Source: a virus | IMG/VR virus record: IMGVR_UViG_3300023109_000080 | Location: 1-31,381 of that record | Strand: one strand, 5' to 3' | DNA: 31,381 bases | In this document: one piece after another, positions 1,573-26,750 of the stretch | How positions within the stretch are numbered: the stretch's first letter is position 1 | Layout of the letters: the number at the start of each line of letters is the position of its first letter | Made by a program: the position numbers and the translations under genes | Notes under the pieces: generated by a model | Database searches by the model: none | Seen by the model: only the letters and a program-made list of their open reading frames with translations | What the model was told of the DNA's origin: nothing

Positions 1573-1706
1573 TAATGTTTTTTAGAATTATCACTTTCTA
1601 ATAATGCCTTATAATAACTTAGTTGCATCTTTAACCTTTTATTTTCAATAGATAAATTAATCAACCTTTTTCTAACATGTTTGAATATTCTAAATATAGC
1701 AGACAT
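1572..1706 (-). CDS. 44-aa helical peptide, unknown function
   Basis: A short frame from ATG 1706 to TAA 1572 encodes MSAIFRIFKHVRKRLINLSI followed by a Glu/Lys/Leu helix (ENKRLKMQLSYYKALLESDN). It has no membrane segment but looks amphipathic, possibly a short coiled coil. Both ends overlap neighbours in TAATG arrangements: its ATG with the stop of the initiator gene (1706-1708), and its stop with the ATG of the HExxH gene. This tight coupling, rather than any homology I recognise, is the evidence that it is real. Confidence 0.6.
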   Translation of the reverse strand: MSAIFRIFKHVRKRLINLSIENKRLKMQLSYYKALLESDNSKKH

Positions 1707-2278
1707 TAATAAGCCTTTATTGGTTCATCTTTAAATTTATGTTTAAGGTATTTTTTTCCGTCTTTTTGCAGAACATTATAAGCACCCTCAGTTCCAACTT
1801 TTTTATACCCATTATTCACAACCTTATCTTTGCTAGACTTACTATTTAGTATATGTGTATTAGTATTGTTATTTAGTACTTGTTGAGGTAGGTGGTTAGT
1901 AGGTGGTTGGTCGCTGTCCACATATTGATATTTGTCATAATTAACAAGCCTTATTAGAGTAACTTTTCGGCTAGGGTGGTTTCCATTGGGTTGAAGCTGG
2001 TTAGTCCTAGTGGTAATCATGCCTCTACGCACAAGCCTTAGTATAAAAGACCTCATCTCAGTATATGTCATGCCAAATCTTTTAGCTGTTACTCTCAATG
2101 GCATAATCATTTCTGCTCTACGAACAAATATGTCATTTTCTAAAAACCTTAATTTTTTTTCTTGGTGTGATGCAGATGATATAAAATATATCCAGCAACT
2201 TGCTTGAAGTAGATTTTTAAATACAGGATTTCTCCATATATCTCTATAAACTAAAAAATACCCAGATCGTTTAGCCAT
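1706..2278 (-). CDS. Probable replication initiator / helicase-loader type protein (190 aa)
   Basis: The N-terminal part (residues 1-100) resembles phage replisome-organiser winged-helix domains: GYFLVYRDIWRNPVFKN followed by SCWIYFISSASH and a predicted DNA-binding helix pair (TAKRFGMTYTEMRSFILRL, then RRGMITTRTN). The C-terminal half is Asn/Lys-rich and low in complexity, as in DnaD/lambda-O-like proteins whose tails contact the helicase. With no polymerase or helicase gene in the window, such a protein would recruit the host replisome to the phage origin. Its place in the leftward block near nuclease and methyltransferase genes fits DNA metabolism. Assignment is by pattern only; it could be a transcription regulator. 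Confidence 0.6.
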   Translation of the reverse strand: MAKRSGYFLVYRDIWRNPVFKNLLQASCWIYFISSASHQEKKLRFLENDIFVRRAEMIMPLRVTAKRFGMTYTEMRSFILRLVRRGMITTRTNQLQPNGNHPSRKVTLIRLVNYDKYQYVDSDQPPTNHLPQQVLNNNTNTHILNSKSSKDKVVNNGYKKVGTEGAYNVLQKDGKKYLKHKFKDEPIKAY

Positions 2279-3766: not shown

Positions 3767-3830
3767 ATTGCATAATACAACCCATTTGGTACATTATTTG
3801 TATATGAAAAACAAAAATAAAGGAGAGAAC

Positions 3831-4106
3831 ATGAAAAACAGAACACTAAAATTAGTTAAAGGAAATATTATTTACAAAAATAAATATCCTTTAGTTAGAG
3901 TAGAAAAAGTAGAACAAGAATTTGGTAAATTTACTTATATAGTTTTTACCAAAGATGCTTCTTCATCTGAACCTGATAATTTTGAGCCAATGATGAATTA
4001 TCATAAAAAAGGTATTGCATTAGATAGTGCATACAATGTTGTTCAAAATCAAATAATTGATTTGATGAAAGAAGTTAGAGATATTAAAAGAGAGGAGAGA
4101 GCATAA
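3831..4106 (+). CDS. First gene of the rightward block, 91 aa, unknown function
   Basis: I place the start at the ATG at 3831 because AAAGGAGAG lies directly upstream. The frame can be read back to 3768 but only over the promoter region. The protein begins MKNRTLKLVKGNIIYKNKYP and has alternating beta-like segments followed by a C-terminal helix (QIIDLMKEVRDIKREERA). No family is recognised. Its position directly after the divergent promoter implies early, high expression, and such first early genes often encode host-takeover proteins, though nothing in the sequence proves it. Its stop overlaps the ATG of the next small gene (TAATG at 4104-4108). Confidence 0.65.
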   Translation: MKNRTLKLVKGNIIYKNKYPLVRVEKVEQEFGKFTYIVFTKDASSSEPDNFEPMMNYHKKGIALDSAYNVVQNQIIDLMKEVRDIKREERA

Positions 4107-4201
4107 TGAAAAAAATAGCATACTACACTTTAGGTTTTATTTTTTCAGGTTTATGTTTAACTGCAATCATGTTAGGTTGCTTACACGTTTGGAGTATATA
4201 A
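4106..4201 (+). CDS. 31-aa membrane micropeptide
   Basis: ATG 4106 to TAA 4201 encodes MKKIAYYTLGFIFSGLCLTA followed by IMLGCLHVWSI, a basic start plus one hydrophobic segment long enough to cross the membrane. GAGGAGAG stands upstream. It overlaps the neighbours on both sides with TAATG junctions, the main evidence that it is translated. It has no known homologue to me. A membrane-acting early peptide (for example superinfection exclusion or host-membrane effect) is possible but unproven. Confidence 0.55.
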   Translation: MKKIAYYTLGFIFSGLCLTAIMLGCLHVWSI

Positions 4202-4479
4202 TGATTGTTAAAAAACAAAATCGTAAAGACTCAACAGTTCATACTTTTATACAAGGCGATAGATATTTTCAATTTACAGAATACTTTGAAGATTCTTACA
4301 GTTGCCTTTTTGATAAAAAAAGAAACAAACCAACTTTTAAAAAAGGTCATATTCATTTTAGTTATCTACTACCTAAAGATAAATGGATAATGGCTTCGCC
4401 TACTTGGTTTCCTGTTTCTAAAGATATTACAAATCTTAAAGATGCAAAAAGGTTTGTTAAGAATAGGGAGTATCTATAA
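4201..4479 (+). CDS. Small protein of 92 aa, unknown function
   Basis: The ATG at 4201 shares a base with the stop of the membrane peptide, so I prefer it over the earlier in-frame start at 4153, which would overlap that gene. The protein is rich in aromatic and basic residues (DRYFQFTEYFEDSYSCLFDK, then KDKWIMASPTWFPVSK) and probably forms a small beta domain. No domain is recognised. It ends in TAATG with the next gene. Confidence 0.6.
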   Translation: MIVKKQNRKDSTVHTFIQGDRYFQFTEYFEDSYSCLFDKKRNKPTFKKGHIHFSYLLPKDKWIMASPTWFPVSKDITNLKDAKRFVKNREYL

Positions 4480-4769
4480 TGAGAATACCAACTAACTCAA
4501 ACTTTACTAAAGAGATGTCTAAAAGACTACAAAGAATAATTAACCCTCAAACTACATTAGAGGAGTTACAGAATTTACAGGACGAGATGAAAATGATTAA
4601 CCCTGTAGATACTTATTTGCAAAAGCAAGTAAGTCATTTGGAGAAAAACAATGAACCCAAAACAAATGTTCAAGGTTCAAGAACAACTAGACAAGAAAAA
4701 ACAAATGGAGAAAGATTTGTTAAGCAAGTTGTTAAAGAACAAAGAACAGCAGAAGAATTTGGCTTTTAG
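4479..4769 (+). CDS. 96-aa helical protein, unknown function
   Basis: The start shares the TAATG junction with the previous gene. The first half (KRLQRIINPQTTLEELQNLQ) is helical and charged, the second half polar and rich in Thr, Arg, Gln and Glu, ending RTAEEFGF. Codon third positions are A/T-rich along the full length, as in neighbouring genes, supporting this frame even where a second frame overlaps (4651-4806). No family recognised. Confidence 0.6.
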   Translation: MRIPTNSNFTKEMSKRLQRIINPQTTLEELQNLQDEMKMINPVDTYLQKQVSHLEKNNEPKTNVQGSRTTRQEKTNGERFVKQVVKEQRTAEEFGF

Positions 4770-4806
4770 ATTACATTTTCTAAAGTATCATCAGCCAATT
4801 TTATAG
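4651..4806 (+). CDS. Possible overprinted 51-aa ORF
   Basis: In the +1 frame relative to the 96-aa gene, ATG 4651 to TAG 4806 encodes MNPKQMFKVQEQLDKKKQME and continues as a Lys/Gln-rich helix ending KYHQPIL. A ribosome-site-like TTGGAGAAAAA precedes the ATG, and the last 37 bases lie outside the overlapping gene. Third positions here are G/C-richer than neighbours, as expected when the other frame is the one under selection. It may be a real overlapping gene or a chance frame. Confidence 0.35.
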   Translation: MNPKQMFKVQEQLDKKKQMEKDLLSKLLKNKEQQKNLAFRLHFLKYHQPIL

Positions 4807-4825
4807 AGAGGAAAAAAAACAAGAT

Positions 4826-5134
4826 ATGAAAACAATACTTTTACTCATGCTATCTATGACCCTATTACAAGCCTGTAGCTATAAACCTATTATAGATACT
4901 GCTGGAAGATCAGGAACTTTTAAAAATTCTACAGCAGAGAATATAACTAACGATATTATTTTATGTAAGGAACTTGCTAAGAAAAATACTAATCAATTAG
5001 TAGAGTCTTATAAAGTAGTGCATAATTGGTATCTAAGACCAAGTGTTTTATGGCTTATGCCTAAAGCTGAATATACAAACAACAAACTTGTAAGGAACTG
5101 TCTTAAAGGCAGAGGCCACAATGTTATTAATTAA
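4826..5134 (+). CDS. Phage-encoded lipoprotein (102 aa)
   Basis: The N-terminus MKTILLLMLSMTLLQAC is a classic lipoprotein signal: Lys, a hydrophobic run and a lipobox LLQAC with C17 as the lipidated residue. The mature part (YKPIIDTAGRSGTF, then NDIILCKELA and a C-terminal NCLKGRGHNVIN) holds two Cys that might form a disulfide. No Asp follows the lipidated Cys, so export to the outer membrane is possible. Early phage lipoproteins often prevent superinfection by blocking receptors or DNA entry, which is a reasonable but unproven guess. The mature part resembles a conserved small family of marine phages and bacteria with a Y-x-P-x-x-D start. Confidence 0.7.
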   Translation: MKTILLLMLSMTLLQACSYKPIIDTAGRSGTFKNSTAENITNDIILCKELAKKNTNQLVESYKVVHNWYLRPSVLWLMPKAEYTNNKLVRNCLKGRGHNVIN

Positions 5135-5144
5135 AGGAGAAAAC

Positions 5145-5519
5145 ATGAACAAAAACAATACAGTAGAAGAAATCAATATATCAGTTAATAATCTATTAGA
5201 AGAATGGAATATTAGCAGAGAGCATAACGATAAAATTGTTACCCAGATTATAGGGCTACAATTAAGAAAGATAAGATTGGTTAATAAGATGACCCAAACT
5301 AGAGTTGCTAAAGCAATTAGAGTTACATTCCAACAGATTCAAAAATATGAAAAAGGCCAGAATCTTTGTAATCCGATAAATCTATTAGCTTTGTCAGAAT
5401 ACTTTAATGTAACATTTGACTATTTTATTAAACCAATCCATATTAAAGAACTTACATTATTAACTAAAAGGAGAGAGAATGTATATCCATTCAAACAAGA
5501 CTACAACATGGCAAGATAA
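5145..5519 (+). CDS. XRE-family helix-turn-helix regulator (124 aa)
   Basis: Residues about 37-97 form a Cro/CI-type HTH: GLQLRKIRLVNKMTQTRVAK, then RVTFQQIQKYEKGQN and LALSEYFNVTFDYFI, the standard five-helix pattern. I start at the ATG at 5145 with AAAGGAG upstream rather than at 5121, which lies inside the lipoprotein gene. A 30-residue N-terminal extension and a short basic tail flank the domain; there is no peptidase domain as in LexA/CI. Likely it represses the divergent promoters at 3528-3830. With no integrase in view, it need not mean lysogeny. Confidence 0.85.
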   Translation: MNKNNTVEEINISVNNLLEEWNISREHNDKIVTQIIGLQLRKIRLVNKMTQTRVAKAIRVTFQQIQKYEKGQNLCNPINLLALSEYFNVTFDYFIKPIHIKELTLLTKRRENVYPFKQDYNMAR

Positions 5520-5658
5520 AAGAATCAACGCCATGAATAGAACAATAAGTAAAAATAAATTTAAAACAGAACACTTTATTGAAGAATATAATAGGGTGTG
5601 TGTTTCAAATGCTAAAAACAAAAGAGAATATAAAGGAGAGAATAATGGCAATACATAA
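5479..5658 (+). CDS. 59-aa protein, unknown
   Basis: ATG 5479, preceded by AAAAGGAGAGAG, opens a frame to TAA 5658 that reads MYIHSNKTTTWQDKRINAMN and continues as a basic, polar peptide. It overlaps the end of the regulator gene by 41 bases and the start of the nuclease gene by 14. The excellent ribosome site argues that it is translated; no function is seen. Confidence 0.5.
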   Translation: MYIHSNKTTTWQDKRINAMNRTISKNKFKTEHFIEEYNRVCVSNAKNKREYKGENNGNT

Positions 5659-6421
5659 GCTAGAACATGGTCATACGATTGAGTTCAATGAAGAAAAGCA
5701 TGTGTATATTCATAACAACGAATATGTAGTTGGTATGAGTACACTACTTGGAAAGTTAGCAAGTCCAATGTTAGAAAATTGGAAGATTAGCCAACAAGTA
5801 AATGCTATCAAGACAGAAATGGAACGAGAGGGTATTCCAATCGACCAGATACAAAAGATAGTTACTAATGCTAAATCTAATGCAAAGAAGTCAGGAGATA
5901 ATATTTTAAATATAGGCTCTATGGTTCATAAGTTTTGCGAGATGTGGCTTAAAGGAGAAAAATTTACTGACCCAAGCGACCCTGTAATATTAGGTTGCTT
6001 TGAGAAGTTTAAAAGGTTTTGGACAAAACATAAGCTAAAAGTTATTGAGTCCGAAAAGGTTTTATACTCTGAGAGAGGATTTTGTGGCACTTTAGATTTA
6101 ATAGCTAAGGATTCACAGAATAATCTATGGCTCATAGATATAAAAACTTCTAAAGGTTTGTTTTTAAATATGGTTCATCAACTACATGGATATAAGTTGG
6201 CCTATGAAGAACAAACAGGAAAGAAGATCAATAAGATGTATATAGTTCGATTGCCTAAAGATAGTGGCGACTTCGAGGCTAGGCATATCTTATACAAAAA
6301 GGAACACTTAAAAGCATTTCTTGGATTATTAAGTTGTCATAAATCTGAGTTAATGTTCAATGAGTCAGTACGAAAATACAATCAACTAAAAAAAGGAAAA
6401 ACAAATGTACGAAAAAAATAA
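5645..6421 (+). CDS. PD-(D/E)XK nuclease of RecB/Cas4 type (258 aa)
   Basis: The ATG at 5645 has AAAGGAGAG upstream; an in-frame start at 5579 would lack one. The catalytic set is visible in order: H95 (GSMVHKF), E137 (ESEKVL), D151 (GTLDLIAKD), D165-I-K167 (WLIDIKTSK) and the QxxxY motif Q179-Y183 (HQLHGYKLAY). This matches the PD-(D/E)XK exonuclease superfamily related to RecB, AddB and Cas4. It likely resects DNA ends to give single strands for recombination, in partnership with the SSB-like protein encoded next (17-base overlap). A Cas4-type iron-sulfur cluster is not evident, as the Cys pattern is missing. Confidence 0.85.
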   Translation: MAIHKLEHGHTIEFNEEKHVYIHNNEYVVGMSTLLGKLASPMLENWKISQQVNAIKTEMEREGIPIDQIQKIVTNAKSNAKKSGDNILNIGSMVHKFCEMWLKGEKFTDPSDPVILGCFEKFKRFWTKHKLKVIESEKVLYSERGFCGTLDLIAKDSQNNLWLIDIKTSKGLFLNMVHQLHGYKLAYEEQTGKKINKMYIVRLPKDSGDFEARHILYKKEHLKAFLGLLSCHKSELMFNESVRKYNQLKKGKTNVRKK

Positions 6422-6869
6422 ATTCGATAAACCTTTCTGTGGATTACAAATGAGATTATTCCCTACAGGAAATGCAAGTCCAAAGTATGAGTATTCTGGA
6501 GAGGCAAGTAAAGTTAAATTTACTTGTAGCTTAACCAAAAGAAAATATGGTTTATCACAAGTTAATGATTGGTTTAACACACCTGAAGTTCAAGAATATA
6601 CTAAAGCTGGTTATGTTTTAAAGTATATGACTAAAACACAGGAAATGCAAAATCCACCACAATATGCAAAAGGTAATCTTGAGCAGATACTTTGTTTGGT
6701 TATGATTAAACCTTATAAGCCTCAAGCTAATGTAGATGGATTTAAGCCTGTAGGCCAAACTATGCCACAGTATAAACCTCAACCAATGACAGAGGCTCAA
6801 CCATCAGCACCAGATAATGCTATGCCTGTTGAGAAGATGTCAGATATGGACGATGAGATTCCATTTTAA
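6405..6869 (+). CDS. Single-stranded-DNA-binding-like protein (154 aa)
   Basis: The protein ends MSDMDDEIPF, the same acidic-hydrophobic tip as bacterial SSB (DDDIPF), which docks recombination and repair enzymes. It is preceded by a flexible Pro/Gln-rich linker (about residues 108-140), again as in SSB. The N-terminal 105 residues (RLFPTGNASPKYEYSGEASK, then KFTCSLTKRKYGLSQV) are too divergent for me to call an OB fold with certainty. It follows the nuclease gene with a 17-base overlap, giving a resection-plus-coating pair. Without OB recognition, a different protein that merely mimics the SSB tip is possible. Confidence 0.65.
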   Translation: MYEKNKFDKPFCGLQMRLFPTGNASPKYEYSGEASKVKFTCSLTKRKYGLSQVNDWFNTPEVQEYTKAGYVLKYMTKTQEMQNPPQYAKGNLEQILCLVMIKPYKPQANVDGFKPVGQTMPQYKPQPMTEAQPSAPDNAMPVEKMSDMDDEIPF

Positions 6870-6871
6870 TT

Positions 6872-7072
6872 ATGTCTAACGATTTATTTATTAGCGAGAT
6901 TGACAAACTAAAACGTGATCTCGCTTTTAAACAAGAAGAACTACAAGCTATGTATTTAGAAAATAGAAACTTACATAAAAAAATAGATATGTTAGAAAAA
7001 GAAAATCATAGCTTTAAACAACAAATAAAACAATTAGAACAAGAAGCAGAGGAGATGTTATTATACCCATGA
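6872..7072 (+). CDS. 66-aa coiled-coil protein
   Basis: Nearly the whole protein is a heptad-rich helix (DKLKRDLAFKQEELQAMYLE, then ENHSFKQQIKQLEQEAEE), so a coiled-coil dimer is likely. The start has no clear ribosome site, but the ATG is three bases after the SSB-like stop, consistent with coupling. Its last codons overlap the next small gene in an ATGA. The residue run LKRDLAF recurs as LKRDLAL in the gene at 7176-7502. Confidence 0.6.
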   Translation: MSNDLFISEIDKLKRDLAFKQEELQAMYLENRNLHKKIDMLEKENHSFKQQIKQLEQEAEEMLLYP

Positions 7073-7179
7073 TTATATTTGGAAAAAGTAAAAGCGATTG
7101 GAAAGTGTTAGAGTTACATTATAGACGAGAATGGATTTGCTTTGTAGTAGGCTTTGTATTAGGAGTTATATTGATATGA
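7069..7179 (+). CDS. 36-aa single-pass membrane peptide
   Basis: ATG 7069 to TGA 7179 encodes MIIFGKSKSDWKVLELHYRR followed by a 15-residue hydrophobic tail (WICFVVGFVLGVILI) that would anchor it in the membrane with the N-terminus in the cytoplasm. Both ends are ATGA overlaps with neighbours (7069-7072 and 7176-7179). This is strong positional evidence for a real gene. Confidence 0.6.
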   Translation: MIIFGKSKSDWKVLELHYRREWICFVVGFVLGVILI

Positions 7180-7502
7180 GTCTAAGCGATCAATTATATA
7201 AAAAACTAGAAGATGCTTCTAATGATTGGGCTGAATGGCAAAAAAAAACTATAATCTTAGATGAGGGTAGAAAAGCAGTTTTTTCTTCGTGTGTAATTAA
7301 ACATAAGAAGTTAGTGAAAACAATGTCTGAAGCAGAACATGAAGCAAGAATAGACCCTGATTATAAAATGATTGTTGAGCAATATGCAGAAGCTGAAAAA
7401 GAATTAATTAAAGCTAGATATAGATATACCAATATTGATAGGTACGTTTCACTCAAGCAATCAGAGTTAAAACGTGATCTTGCTTTGAATAGTAAAGTTT
7501 AA
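7176..7502 (+). CDS. 108-aa helical protein, unknown function
   Basis: I start at ATG 7176, which overlaps the upstream stop (ATGA) and has TTAGGAG upstream, rather than at 7131 inside the membrane peptide gene. The protein is a long charged helix (LYKKLEDASNDWAEWQKKTI, then VEQYAEAEKELIKARYRYTN) ending LKRDLALNSKV. It resembles conserved hypothetical phage proteins of recombination modules in which Ala/Glu-rich helices carry a 'DPxY' turn (DPDYKM here), but I cannot name a family. The context beside nuclease and SSB-like genes suggests DNA metabolism. Confidence 0.6.
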   Translation: MSLSDQLYKKLEDASNDWAEWQKKTIILDEGRKAVFSSCVIKHKKLVKTMSEAEHEARIDPDYKMIVEQYAEAEKELIKARYRYTNIDRYVSLKQSELKRDLALNSKV

Positions 7503-7634
7503 ATGAATTCTATTAACGATATATTGATTTGCTCCCGATATATGAGTCTAGTAGATAGAGCCATCAGCGAGAGTTGGTGGCTTGTTAAAAGAATTTTAGG
7601 TGTTTTTAATTATGGTTTATATAAACGGCCATAA
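7503..7634 (+). CDS. 43-aa peptide, last rightward gene, doubtful
   Basis: ATG 7503 begins immediately after the previous stop (TAAATG) and runs to TAA 7634. It reads MNSINDILICSRYMSLVDRA and then ISESWWLVKRILGVF with a Trp-rich amphipathic stretch. No ribosome site is seen, so it would depend on coupling. It is the last frame before the terminator. Its reality rests on position only. Confidence 0.35.
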   Translation: MNSINDILICSRYMSLVDRAISESWWLVKRILGVFNYGLYKRP

Positions 7635-18861: not shown

Positions 18862-20666
18862 TATATTAAACTTTTAGCACCTCTCTCATTAACAGCATTA
18901 TTAATTAGTTGAGTTATTGCACCTCTTGATCTAATCAGTAATTCTTCAAAGCCAGAAGCGTCAACTGTATTAATGTTAAAATTAACTGTAGTAGCACCAC
19001 CATTTCCTGTTCCTCTAGCTGATTGTGTTATTTGACCTGATGAGTTAGGTATAAATAATTCTGCACCTTGTTCTCCAACTACGATTGGTTGTCCTTTAGA
19101 TACTGCACCACCATTTGCAAAAAATCCTAAACCACTACCACCATTACCACCACCTAAAGCATTTAAAACAACTTGTCTTTTCATTTCAGTTGTTTGTGAT
19201 CTTAATTCATTTGTAATTTGTTTTTCTGTATCTACTTGATCTTTTTTAAGTGCGTTTCTAATGGTTTCTTGAATAACTAATTGTATTGTAAAAGCTACCA
19301 TATCTACTAACAGTTTTTGTGCTATTTCTTTAAATGTCATATTAAGTTCTTTACCAAGTACCAAAGATTCTGCAAGTCCTCTTGATATAGCTTGAATTCC
19401 ACTAGTAGCCATCTTTCCTACAGTTTCATTAATGGATTCAAAATCTTTTTTAAATTCTGTTAATATATTTTCTTTAATCATTTGTAAATTTATTCCAGCC
19501 TTTTCAGTTTCTTCTGTAAAGTTAGTTGCACTTTTCATTAACTCGTCCATAGATTTTTTAGATGCAATTATATTCTCATCAATAAGTTCAATAAACTTAT
19601 TAGCTTTTTTAAACATACCACCCATACTTTCATCATCTTTTGCACCAAATATTTTATTGGTAAGTTCGTCTAAATCTAATCCCATTTTTTTAATTAATGC
19701 TAAAATACCAACTACTGCTATTTTTCCACCTCTACCTAACATTAAGAATCCAAGAATACCTAACTCTCTCATACCAGCTGGAAGTGATTTAACCACTTCT
19801 ATTAACCCAGCTAAGCCATTATTTATTATTCTAAATAAAGGTGCTACTAAATCCATTAGTCCAGCCATACCTAAAATAAATTGTTTTATAAAATTAACCA
19901 TGCCTTGACCAACTGCACTAGAGAAACCACTTAATGCTTGTGCGTTTGCTTCTATCATTCTATTTATAACTACAAGTCCATTTTTAATAAAATCAAAGAA
20001 ACCAGCTTCGTTAGTTTCTAATTTAAACTTGAAAAGTTTATCTCCAAGCATAGATAGTGTTCCTGTAAATGTTGTTGCTAATACTTCTGTTGCTTTTGAG
20101 AATCTTCCATCTTCTCCAAATAGTTCTTCAAATCTTTTTATTGTTTCTTCTGTAGTAACATTCATTCCAGCTTTAAATCCTAATAAGGCTCTAACACCTC
20201 TTTCTCTAAATAAATCTGCACTACCAATACCTGATGAGAATGATCTTTGTATTTGTTCTGCTGTTGTTCTAAAATCTAGTCCTGTAACAGATGCAACATT
20301 CCCTGTAATTTTTAATATTTTTTGTAGTTCGTCTGCATCTTTTGAAACAACTGCTAAACTTCCTGATGCTGATGATATTTCGTCTAGTGAAAAAGGTACT
20401 TTACCAGCAAAATCTATTAAACCTTTAAATGCTTTTTGACCCTCTTTAACATTACCAAATAAAAAATTAAATCTTATACCAAGATTTTCTACTTCACTTC
20501 CTACTTTTAAAATTGATCTTACAACGAGTCCACCACCAACACCTACTAAAGCTGATTGAACAGAAAATATAGATGCTTTTAAATTACTTAGTCCAGCACG
20601 AACACTATTAAATGCTTGTTTTGTTTTATCTCGTGCTAATACATTTAATACTAAATTTTGTGCCAT
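18861..20666 (-). CDS. Tape measure protein (601 aa)
   Basis: A long mostly helical protein with Gly-rich and hydrophobic patches (LGFLMLGRGGKIAVVGILAL, about 310-330) and the typical tape-measure end: GFFANGGAVSKGQPIVVGEQ, then GAELFIPNSSGQITQSARG. The order after chaperone genes and before tail-tip genes is diagnostic. With the usual 0.15 nm per residue, the tail would be about 90 nm (a rule-of-thumb estimate). The start shares the TAATG with the end of the frameshifted chaperone. Confidence 0.9.
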   Translation of the reverse strand: MAQNLVLNVLARDKTKQAFNSVRAGLSNLKASIFSVQSALVGVGGGLVVRSILKVGSEVENLGIRFNFLFGNVKEGQKAFKGLIDFAGKVPFSLDEISSASGSLAVVSKDADELQKILKITGNVASVTGLDFRTTAEQIQRSFSSGIGSADLFRERGVRALLGFKAGMNVTTEETIKRFEELFGEDGRFSKATEVLATTFTGTLSMLGDKLFKFKLETNEAGFFDFIKNGLVVINRMIEANAQALSGFSSAVGQGMVNFIKQFILGMAGLMDLVAPLFRIINNGLAGLIEVVKSLPAGMRELGILGFLMLGRGGKIAVVGILALIKKMGLDLDELTNKIFGAKDDESMGGMFKKANKFIELIDENIIASKKSMDELMKSATNFTEETEKAGINLQMIKENILTEFKKDFESINETVGKMATSGIQAISRGLAESLVLGKELNMTFKEIAQKLLVDMVAFTIQLVIQETIRNALKKDQVDTEKQITNELRSQTTEMKRQVVLNALGGGNGGSGLGFFANGGAVSKGQPIVVGEQGAELFIPNSSGQITQSARGTGNGGATTVNFNINTVDASGFEELLIRSRGAITQLINNAVNERGAKSLI

Positions 20667-26405: not shown

Positions 26406-26750
26406 ATGAATATAATATCAATGCACAAAAATGGAATAGATGCTTCTAAAAAAGCTGTTATAAAATTTTTAGAAGATTGGAATAAAAACACGGGTGGTAA
26501 TGAATATGGAGAACCAATGTATTGTGGTTTTGCTGGTGTTGTTATTTATGATGTAAGATCAAATTCTAAAATTGGAAAACAATTACAAGAAATTGGTTTC
26601 AGAAAACACTATCCAAAAGGCCTTTATCTTAATAATCCATCTAACCATCATGGTCAATCTATGGATTGTAAAGAGGAGGGTGCATCTGCTTATGCTAAAA
26701 TTTTTAGAGATGCTGGTATAAAAGCCTATATGACTTCAAGACCTGATTAA
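26406..26750 (+). CDS. Isolated rightward gene inside the structural operon (114 aa)
   Basis: AAAGGAGAG precedes ATG 26406. The protein is MNIISMHKNGIDASKKAVIK, then KFLEDWNKNTGGNEYGEPMY, CGFAGVVIYDVRSN, GFRKHYPKGLYLNNPSN, HGQSMDCKEEGASAYAKIFR and AYMTSRPD. From memory this matches a conserved phage protein with the pattern CGFAW...GFRK.Y..GL.LWNPS...Q..D.K..GA.A...SR.D and no known function. It runs against the flow of the structural genes, with its own promoter and terminator, like a moron. No neighbour explains it. It may be an accessory for host manipulation. Confidence 0.75.
   Translation: MNIISMHKNGIDASKKAVIKFLEDWNKNTGGNEYGEPMYCGFAGVVIYDVRSNSKIGKQLQEIGFRKHYPKGLYLNNPSNHHGQSMDCKEEGASAYAKIFRDAGIKAYMTSRPD

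Follow-up and report, generated by a model that had tools for sequence, protein, structure and literature searches.

A host-type SSB docking tip on a protein encoded beside a PD-(D/E)XK exonuclease in an HTVC111P-type pelagiphage

Pairs of a phage exonuclease and a protein acting on single-stranded DNA (ssDNA) are already known. Gp2.5 carries an OB fold and an acidic tail. According to PMC8093625, phages of Firmicutes and of many Gram-negative bacteria encode a PD-(D/E)XK nuclease close to Gp2.5 and no ssb gene. For the SSB of phage HK620, PMC5928155 gives the last six residues (NDYPPF) as needed to stimulate its annealing partner, which is a precedent for a role of the tip. DnaD binds PriA in Staphylococcus aureus (PMC4909229). 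The locus described here combines an unusual protein body with an unexpected link between the tail of that protein and the type of replication initiator.

The window, that is, the whole stretch of DNA that was analysed, is the IMG/VR record IMGVR_UViG_3300023109_000080 with a length of 31,381 bases. Its nuclease is 96.5% identical and the adjoining protein, here called P2, 90.3% identical to those of Pelagibacter phage HTVC111P, and the gene order around the two genes is the same. Judged from this kinship, the window is an HTVC111P-type pelagiphage. HTVC111P was reportedly isolated by Zhang et al. (2021), among cultured pelagiphages. The recorded hosts of the related isolates are Pelagibacter strains (SAR11), and the host of the window virus is presumably of the same SAR11/Pelagibacter type. 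The nuclease, P2 and an HTH regulator (5121-5519) lie in a plus-strand stretch (3768-7634), which looks like a separate early or lysogeny-type operon; most of the other larger ORFs are on the minus strand, 26406-26750 being an exception. No description of P2 or of the nuclease-P2 pairing was found in the open papers searched.

The nuclease gene (5645..6421, plus strand) encodes a RecB/Cas4/RecE-type protein of 258 aa, which matched the 'exonuclease' profile phrog_298 with an E-value of 7.5e-40. Across 122 distinct nucleases, including that of the window, the residues H95, E137, D151, D165-x-K167 and Q179-x3-Y183 (5927..6193, plus strand) were each conserved at 1.00 (rounded) in the alignment, and we take these to be the RecB-type active-site set. 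The Pfam PDDEXK_1 cut-off was passed by the HTVC112P and HTVC202P homologues (two of the three pelagiphage homologues tested), while the HTVC026P homologue and the window nuclease lay below it, the window copy having no significant PDDEXK match. The PHROG profile and the conserved residues confirm, at the level of sequence, a RecB-type PD-(D/E)XK exonuclease of PHROG 298. The end of its gene and the start of P2 overlap by 17 nt (6405..6421, plus strand), as seen from the ORF coordinates, and the annotated orthologous gene of HTVC111P has equal length and the identical 17-nt overlap; translational coupling of the two genes is therefore likely. The nuclease immediately preceded P2 in 225 of the 264 loci with a full P2, a count in which the loci of one contig may recur. 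The PD-(D/E)XK nuclease overlapping P2, as read by the earlier note from the letters alone, was thus upheld by profile, motif and overlap.

P2 is an ORF of 154 aa (6405..6869, plus strand) with the C-terminus MSDMDDEIPF. The last six residues, DDEIPF (6849..6866, plus strand), form an SSB-type docking tip, as established by the ORF end, chance tests, the family alignment and codon variation. They close a tail (6723..6869, plus strand, stop codon included) consisting of a Pro/Gln-rich linker and an acidic end, which is mostly predicted to be disordered from model and composition: proline and glutamine make up 27% of the tail vs 14% of the body, the pI of the tail is 4.05, and residues 114-154 have a pLDDT below 50. 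P2 therefore displays the arrangement of bacterial SSB, a D-D-x-(I/L)-P-F tip on a disordered linker, and the earlier claim of such a tip after a Pro/Gln-rich linker was correct. The coding pattern D-(D/E)-I-P-F-TRR (TRR covering the stops and TGG) occurred once in the window and in none of 100 dinucleotide shuffles. With a wider tip pattern closing a frame, the end of P2 was the sole occurrence on both strands of the window.

The tip was found in 101 of 129 distinct full-length P2 family sequences, the window's included. The variants were DDEIPF (80), DDDLPPF (14) and DDDIPF (3), and one each of DEEIPF, DDDLPF, DDDLDAPF and DDEMPF. The set was built from the best 80 of 105, 129 and 337 relatives and is therefore weighted towards close kin. 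From 137 distinct hits, eight were left out as fragments (<130 aa or cut): three pieces of 80 aa and one of 44 aa with the tip, one with the YE(Q/R)EL(G/S) tail described below, two cut by contig ends, and one of 117 aa without the tip. In one locus (L233) P2 is broken, a 117-aa frame without the tip (3998-4351) overlapping a 44-aa frame (4317-4451) that ends MSDMDDEIPF; it looks frameshifted, either genuinely or through a sequencing error.

The coding sequences of the tip were then compared at the codon level. The 79 distinct genes ending MDDEIPF used 16 different DNA strings across their last seven codons. The tail is most often 45 codons long (61 of 110 tip genes). Over 59 distinct tails of that length, pS was 0.57 and pN 0.07 in the last six codons, vs 0.48 and 0.18 in the preceding 39 codons. 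This demonstrates that the tip is under strong purifying selection, and the synonymous variation around a fixed peptide rules out drift as its cause. Twenty listed SAR11 loci were sampled for the host SSB, and six of these genomes gave none. All 14 SSBs recovered end DD(E/D)IPF (DDEIPF in eight, DDDIPF in six), which bears out the view that the tip copies the host's own, and two of them end SDMDDEIPF, nine residues identical to the window P2.

The remaining 28 of the 129 sequences, an HTVC112P-like group, share a different conserved tail, YE(Q/R)EL(G/S), and keep a related P2 body. In full, this tail reads TDFNPD(M/Q/L)YE(Q/R)EL(G/S) (seen in L124 at 5974-6477 and in 27 other distinct sequences). 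The tip pattern was absent from both halves of the HTVC112P record. From its conservation, the YE(Q/R)EL(G/S) tail may be a docking peptide with a target other than the SSB clients. Loss of the tip in relatives, which the earlier note had counted against its own reading, does occur in this one group; the tip there is replaced by the other conserved tail, accompanied by another initiator, which argues for a role rather than drift.

The tail and the initiator were compared across contigs. The window encodes a DnaD-like helicase loader or initiator of 190 aa (1706..2278, minus strand), which matched phrog_2514 with an E-value of 1.3e-15; its best PHROG was the unnamed phrog_27581, and it had no Pfam match. 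The annotations of the three tip-bearing isolates HTVC111P, HTVC026P and HTVC202P each include a DnaD domain protein. HTVC112P has instead an initiator that matches PHROGs named 'primosomal' or 'replication initiation protein' and Pfam DUF1376, for which we use our own label 'RepO-like'. Among 22 contigs hand-picked for length and tail type (12 tip, 10 no-tip), the DnaD-like loader was present in 12/12 tip contigs and the other initiator in 0/12. The no-tip contigs carried the other initiator in 8/10 and a full loader in 0/10, and two (L193 and L224, which may be fragments) carried neither; a 33-aa partial loader match in two no-tip contigs falls inside the other initiator. Across all fetched loci, in most of which the flanks end before the initiator, the loader was found in 67/224 tip vs 0/39 no-tip loci, and the other initiator in 0/224 vs 1/39. 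Tail type therefore tracks initiator type in these 22 hand-picked contigs, which have common ancestry, so that the count is not a significance test. L195 has a no-tip tail and a RepO-like initiator, yet its nuclease groups with those of the tip phages; in the nuclease tree L195 and L250 are on long branches and their placement is unsure. The window loader (1706-2278, minus strand) and the HTVC112P initiator (L285, 5758-6552) have a C-terminal stretch in common, 13/27 identical and ending KDGKKY, as if a docking peptide had been retained on two otherwise dissimilar initiators.

A PHROG scan of 40 window ORFs, including every ORF of at least 150 aa except an antisense frame (19432-19908), matched neither a polymerase nor a helicase; the ORFs beyond these 40 are mostly small. 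The earlier note had seen no annealing protein, polymerase or helicase; this held for the latter two within the scanned ORFs, but the DnaD-like loader had been overlooked. Its description of a minimal recombination module was likewise right for the nuclease and the tip and too narrow in function, as the loader is present and the tail follows the initiator. The interpretation in the earlier note thus holds in part, and P2 seems tied to the start of replication as much as to recombination.

The body of P2, residues 1-106 (6405..6722, plus strand), is a basic alpha/beta domain according to its AF2 model and composition. The model had a mean pLDDT of 89.0 over residues 5-106 and a predicted order of a strand, a short strand, two helices and two long strands (beta-beta-alpha-alpha-beta-beta). 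The body has a pI of 9.3 and a net charge of +7, and the charge was between +2 and +11 in 48/48 family members. The window P2 had no PHROG match, and its best Pfam match was DUF2623 at an E-value of 0.089 (both searches at a limit of E 1). None of the RecT/Red-beta, Erf, Sak or Gp2.5/DUF2815 profiles was matched by 48 members in Pfam or by 18 in PHROGs. Pfam SSB (PF00436) was matched by 0/48 members at E 0.05, an NCBIfam SSB model by one of the 48 (E 0.019), and the family profile found nothing in the PDB under E 0.2. Weak hits of single members to SecDF (4/48, best E 0.0022) and Organ_specific (2/48, 0.0032) were taken as chance.

Two AF2 models, of the full protein and of the body, were searched against the PDB with Foldseek, the full protein also against BFVD, and VIA-align 2 was used in addition. 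The best Foldseek E-values in the PDB were 0.06 for the full protein and 0.22 for the body, which are not reliable, and the best VIA-align 2 match (Z 3.9, obtained with the body) was the KCTD8 H1 domain with an rmsd of 5.2 over 65 residues. No SSB, RecT, Red-beta or Gp2.5 chain was among the fold matches listed. The sole BFVD match below 0.001 was A0A1B1IRV7 (E 6e-17, 51% identity), probably a homologue; the second, A0A0M4K6C1, had an E-value of 1.2e-3 and 14% identity. A search of genome contigs for cellular homologues gave 14 pattern matches, none of them a relative, and a search for such homologues in 14 SAR11 genomes matched 0/14, a result that is uninformative as it had no positive control. 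The P2 body is thus not recognisably OB or SSB, none of its matches in Pfam, NCBIfam, PHROGs or the PDB is convincing, and a degenerate OB fold is possible. The possibility of a non-OB N-terminal domain, raised by the earlier note, agrees with the lack of a significant OB-fold or annealing family match by sequence; the fold searches returned nothing reliable.

Sequence identities were compared over 98 distinct nuclease-body-tail triples, all of the tip type with a VDG-type linker, the no-tip group being left out. Of the 1037 pairs whose nucleases were at least 90% identical, 232 had bodies with an identity of 65% or less (pairs are not independent), and in 119 of those 232 the tails shared 85% identity or more. 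In the opposite direction, the bodies shared 80% identity or more in 36 of the 2153 pairs whose nucleases were 55% identical or less, again not independent. On these comparisons, the nuclease, the body and the tail are modules that are exchanged separately. When the DNA of locus L093 was compared with the window, the nuclease halves gave 0.96 and 0.91, the body 0.60 and 0.63, the tail 0.98 and the next gene 0.71. The P2 body has the look of a cassette swapped in between two conserved neighbours, the nuclease and the tail. Body swaps relative to window 6405-6722 were seen in L093 (1873-2334), L068, L096 and L110. The exchange of bodies suggests a pressure to change, perhaps from host defence.

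The partners of this nuclease family elsewhere were examined in 7 of 14 non-pelagiphage nuclease records, the other seven bearing the same or sister phage names. RecT was encoded directly or one gene downstream of the nuclease in two distant phages of these seven (Mycobacterium prophiT36-2a and Gordonia Frokostdame). In Clavibacter CN1A an annotated SSB, itself without a PHROG match, lies three genes after the nuclease; the gene that follows the nuclease in Tunturi_3, Itty13, immuto and Shaeky was not a recognised annealing protein. P2 shares with annealing proteins the feature of adjoining a phage exonuclease gene, and it occupies a slot that holds the annealing protein in some phages, not all. 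The idea of a recombination pair by position is accordingly backed by the two RecT phages and weakened by the other five of the seven, where none was recognised in the next gene.

The possible clients of the tip were searched for in the 14 incomplete SAR11 genomes that had yielded an SSB. PriA was over the cut-off in 10/14, RecO in 10/14 and DnaG in 12/14. A search for the polymerase III chi subunit (PF04364), positive in E. coli and Caulobacter, detected it in 0/14, and RecQ was over the cut-off in 0/14, with weaker helicase matches in 14/14; such absences are weak given the incompleteness of the genomes. Judging from chi and RecQ, SAR11 may offer the SSB tip a smaller number of clients than E. 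coli does. Docking of host SSB clients (PriA, DnaG, RecO) by the tip is strongly implied. By analogy with the DnaD-PriA contact, we infer that PriA is the likeliest of them, as a DnaD-like loader is present in every tip contig tested.

Our preferred reading, which we hold with slightly less belief than doubt, is that P2 is a phage stand-in for SSB, a non-OB analogue that docks host SSB clients on phage DNA. The exonuclease would make single strands at the phage DNA ends, and the basic non-OB body would hold this single-stranded DNA or sit there together with the exonuclease; both ssDNA binding by the body and contact of P2 with the nuclease are presumed. P2 would cover the single strands while its flexible linker presents the host-type tip, recruiting host proteins that normally read SSB, with PriA, DnaG and RecO as the SAR11 candidates. 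In this way P2 probably brings host replication and repair proteins to viral DNA. Given the DnaD-like loader in the tip phages tested, the likeliest route would lead from the tip to host PriA, on to the phage DnaD-like loader and then to host DnaB helicase, so that replication forks driven by the host polymerase would arise from recombination intermediates or phage origins. In favour of this speak the SSB-like layout of basic body and acidic tail, a tip equal to the host's and under selection, the co-occurrence of tip and loader, the lack of a phage polymerase or helicase in the 40 ORFs, the RecT pairing in two distant phages of the seven examined, and the presence of PriA, RecO and DnaG in SAR11. 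Against it, an SSB must coat DNA, and the predicted body fold matched no known ssDNA binder in the fold searches. Furthermore, the tail-initiator link comes from the 22 hand-picked contigs of common ancestry; the step from tip to PriA to DnaD is borrowed from Gram-positive bacteria, and the phage loader has a PHROG match only. The no-tip group retains a related body and functions in the absence of the tip; in five of the seven other phages encoding a nuclease of this family, the gene that follows it is not a recognised annealing protein.

The same pairing could be an ordinary recombination pair, which we consider rather unlikely, with P2 as a diverged annealing or Gp2.5-like partner, the tip serving recombination only (RecO/RecA loading or nuclease stimulation) and the loader link reflecting shared ancestry. 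RecT after the same nuclease family in two phages, the nuclease near Gp2.5 described in PMC8093625, the gene overlap and the position of the nuclease directly before P2 in most loci would all fit; however, P2 has no profile match to the known annealing families, its body has only about 105 aa, and in L195, on its long branch, the tail goes with the initiator and the nuclease does not. The overlapping genes and a body without a recognised DNA-binding fold would also suit an adaptor that binds the exonuclease rather than DNA, its tip delivering the nuclease to PriA, RecO or DnaG or, mimicking SSB, switching the nuclease on. This we regard as improbable, since a strict body-nuclease interface is unlikely to tolerate the mismatched pairs of nucleases and bodies described above (not independent), and the body is basic in every member analysed. 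Very improbable, finally, is a decoy whose free SSB tip would sequester the host proteins that bind SSB, blocking host repair or replication. A decoy would explain a copy of the host tip on a body not recognisably SSB, but an exonuclease and a loader as partners speak for use rather than blockade, and a decoy gives no reason for the tail following the initiator type.

Extending the SSB stand-in to the family, we consider it possible, though rather doubtful, that a non-OB family took over the role of SSB in a group of ocean phages by wearing the host tip. The tail would then be a swappable plug fitting the initiator, the SSB tip going with the DnaD-like loader and YE(Q/R)EL(G/S) with the primosomal-type initiator, and bodies and nucleases would be exchanged around it. 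SAR11 is an abundant ocean bacterium, and the virus is related to SAR11 phages. An SSB tip on a body that is not recognisably SSB, tied to the type of loader, offers a testable answer to how such phages take over host replication, and suggests that the SSB docking hub of the host is a plug copied by phages.

Compared with known systems, P2 resembles bacterial SSB (PF00436) and phage SSBs such as that of HK620 in having a basic body and a flexible acidic tail with a client-docking hexapeptide. It differs from bacterial SSB in that none of the 48 members matches PF00436 and the body is predicted as beta-beta-alpha-alpha-beta-beta. The RecE/RecT-type pairs of Mycobacterium prophiT36-2a and Gordonia Frokostdame have a related nuclease with its partner directly or one gene downstream, but the partner there is a RecT of 337-348 aa, whereas P2 has 154 aa, an SSB tip and no RecT match. 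The module of nuclease DUF2800 and Gp2.5 (DUF2815), as described in PMC8093625, likewise places a PD-(D/E)XK nuclease near an SSB-like protein without ssb; the window differs in having no DUF2815 or DUF2800 match, and no polA was found. The Gram-positive PriA-DnaD primosome similarly brings together an SSB tip, PriA and a DnaD-like loader, but here the tip and the loader are encoded by the phage, and PriA would be that of its alphaproteobacterial host.
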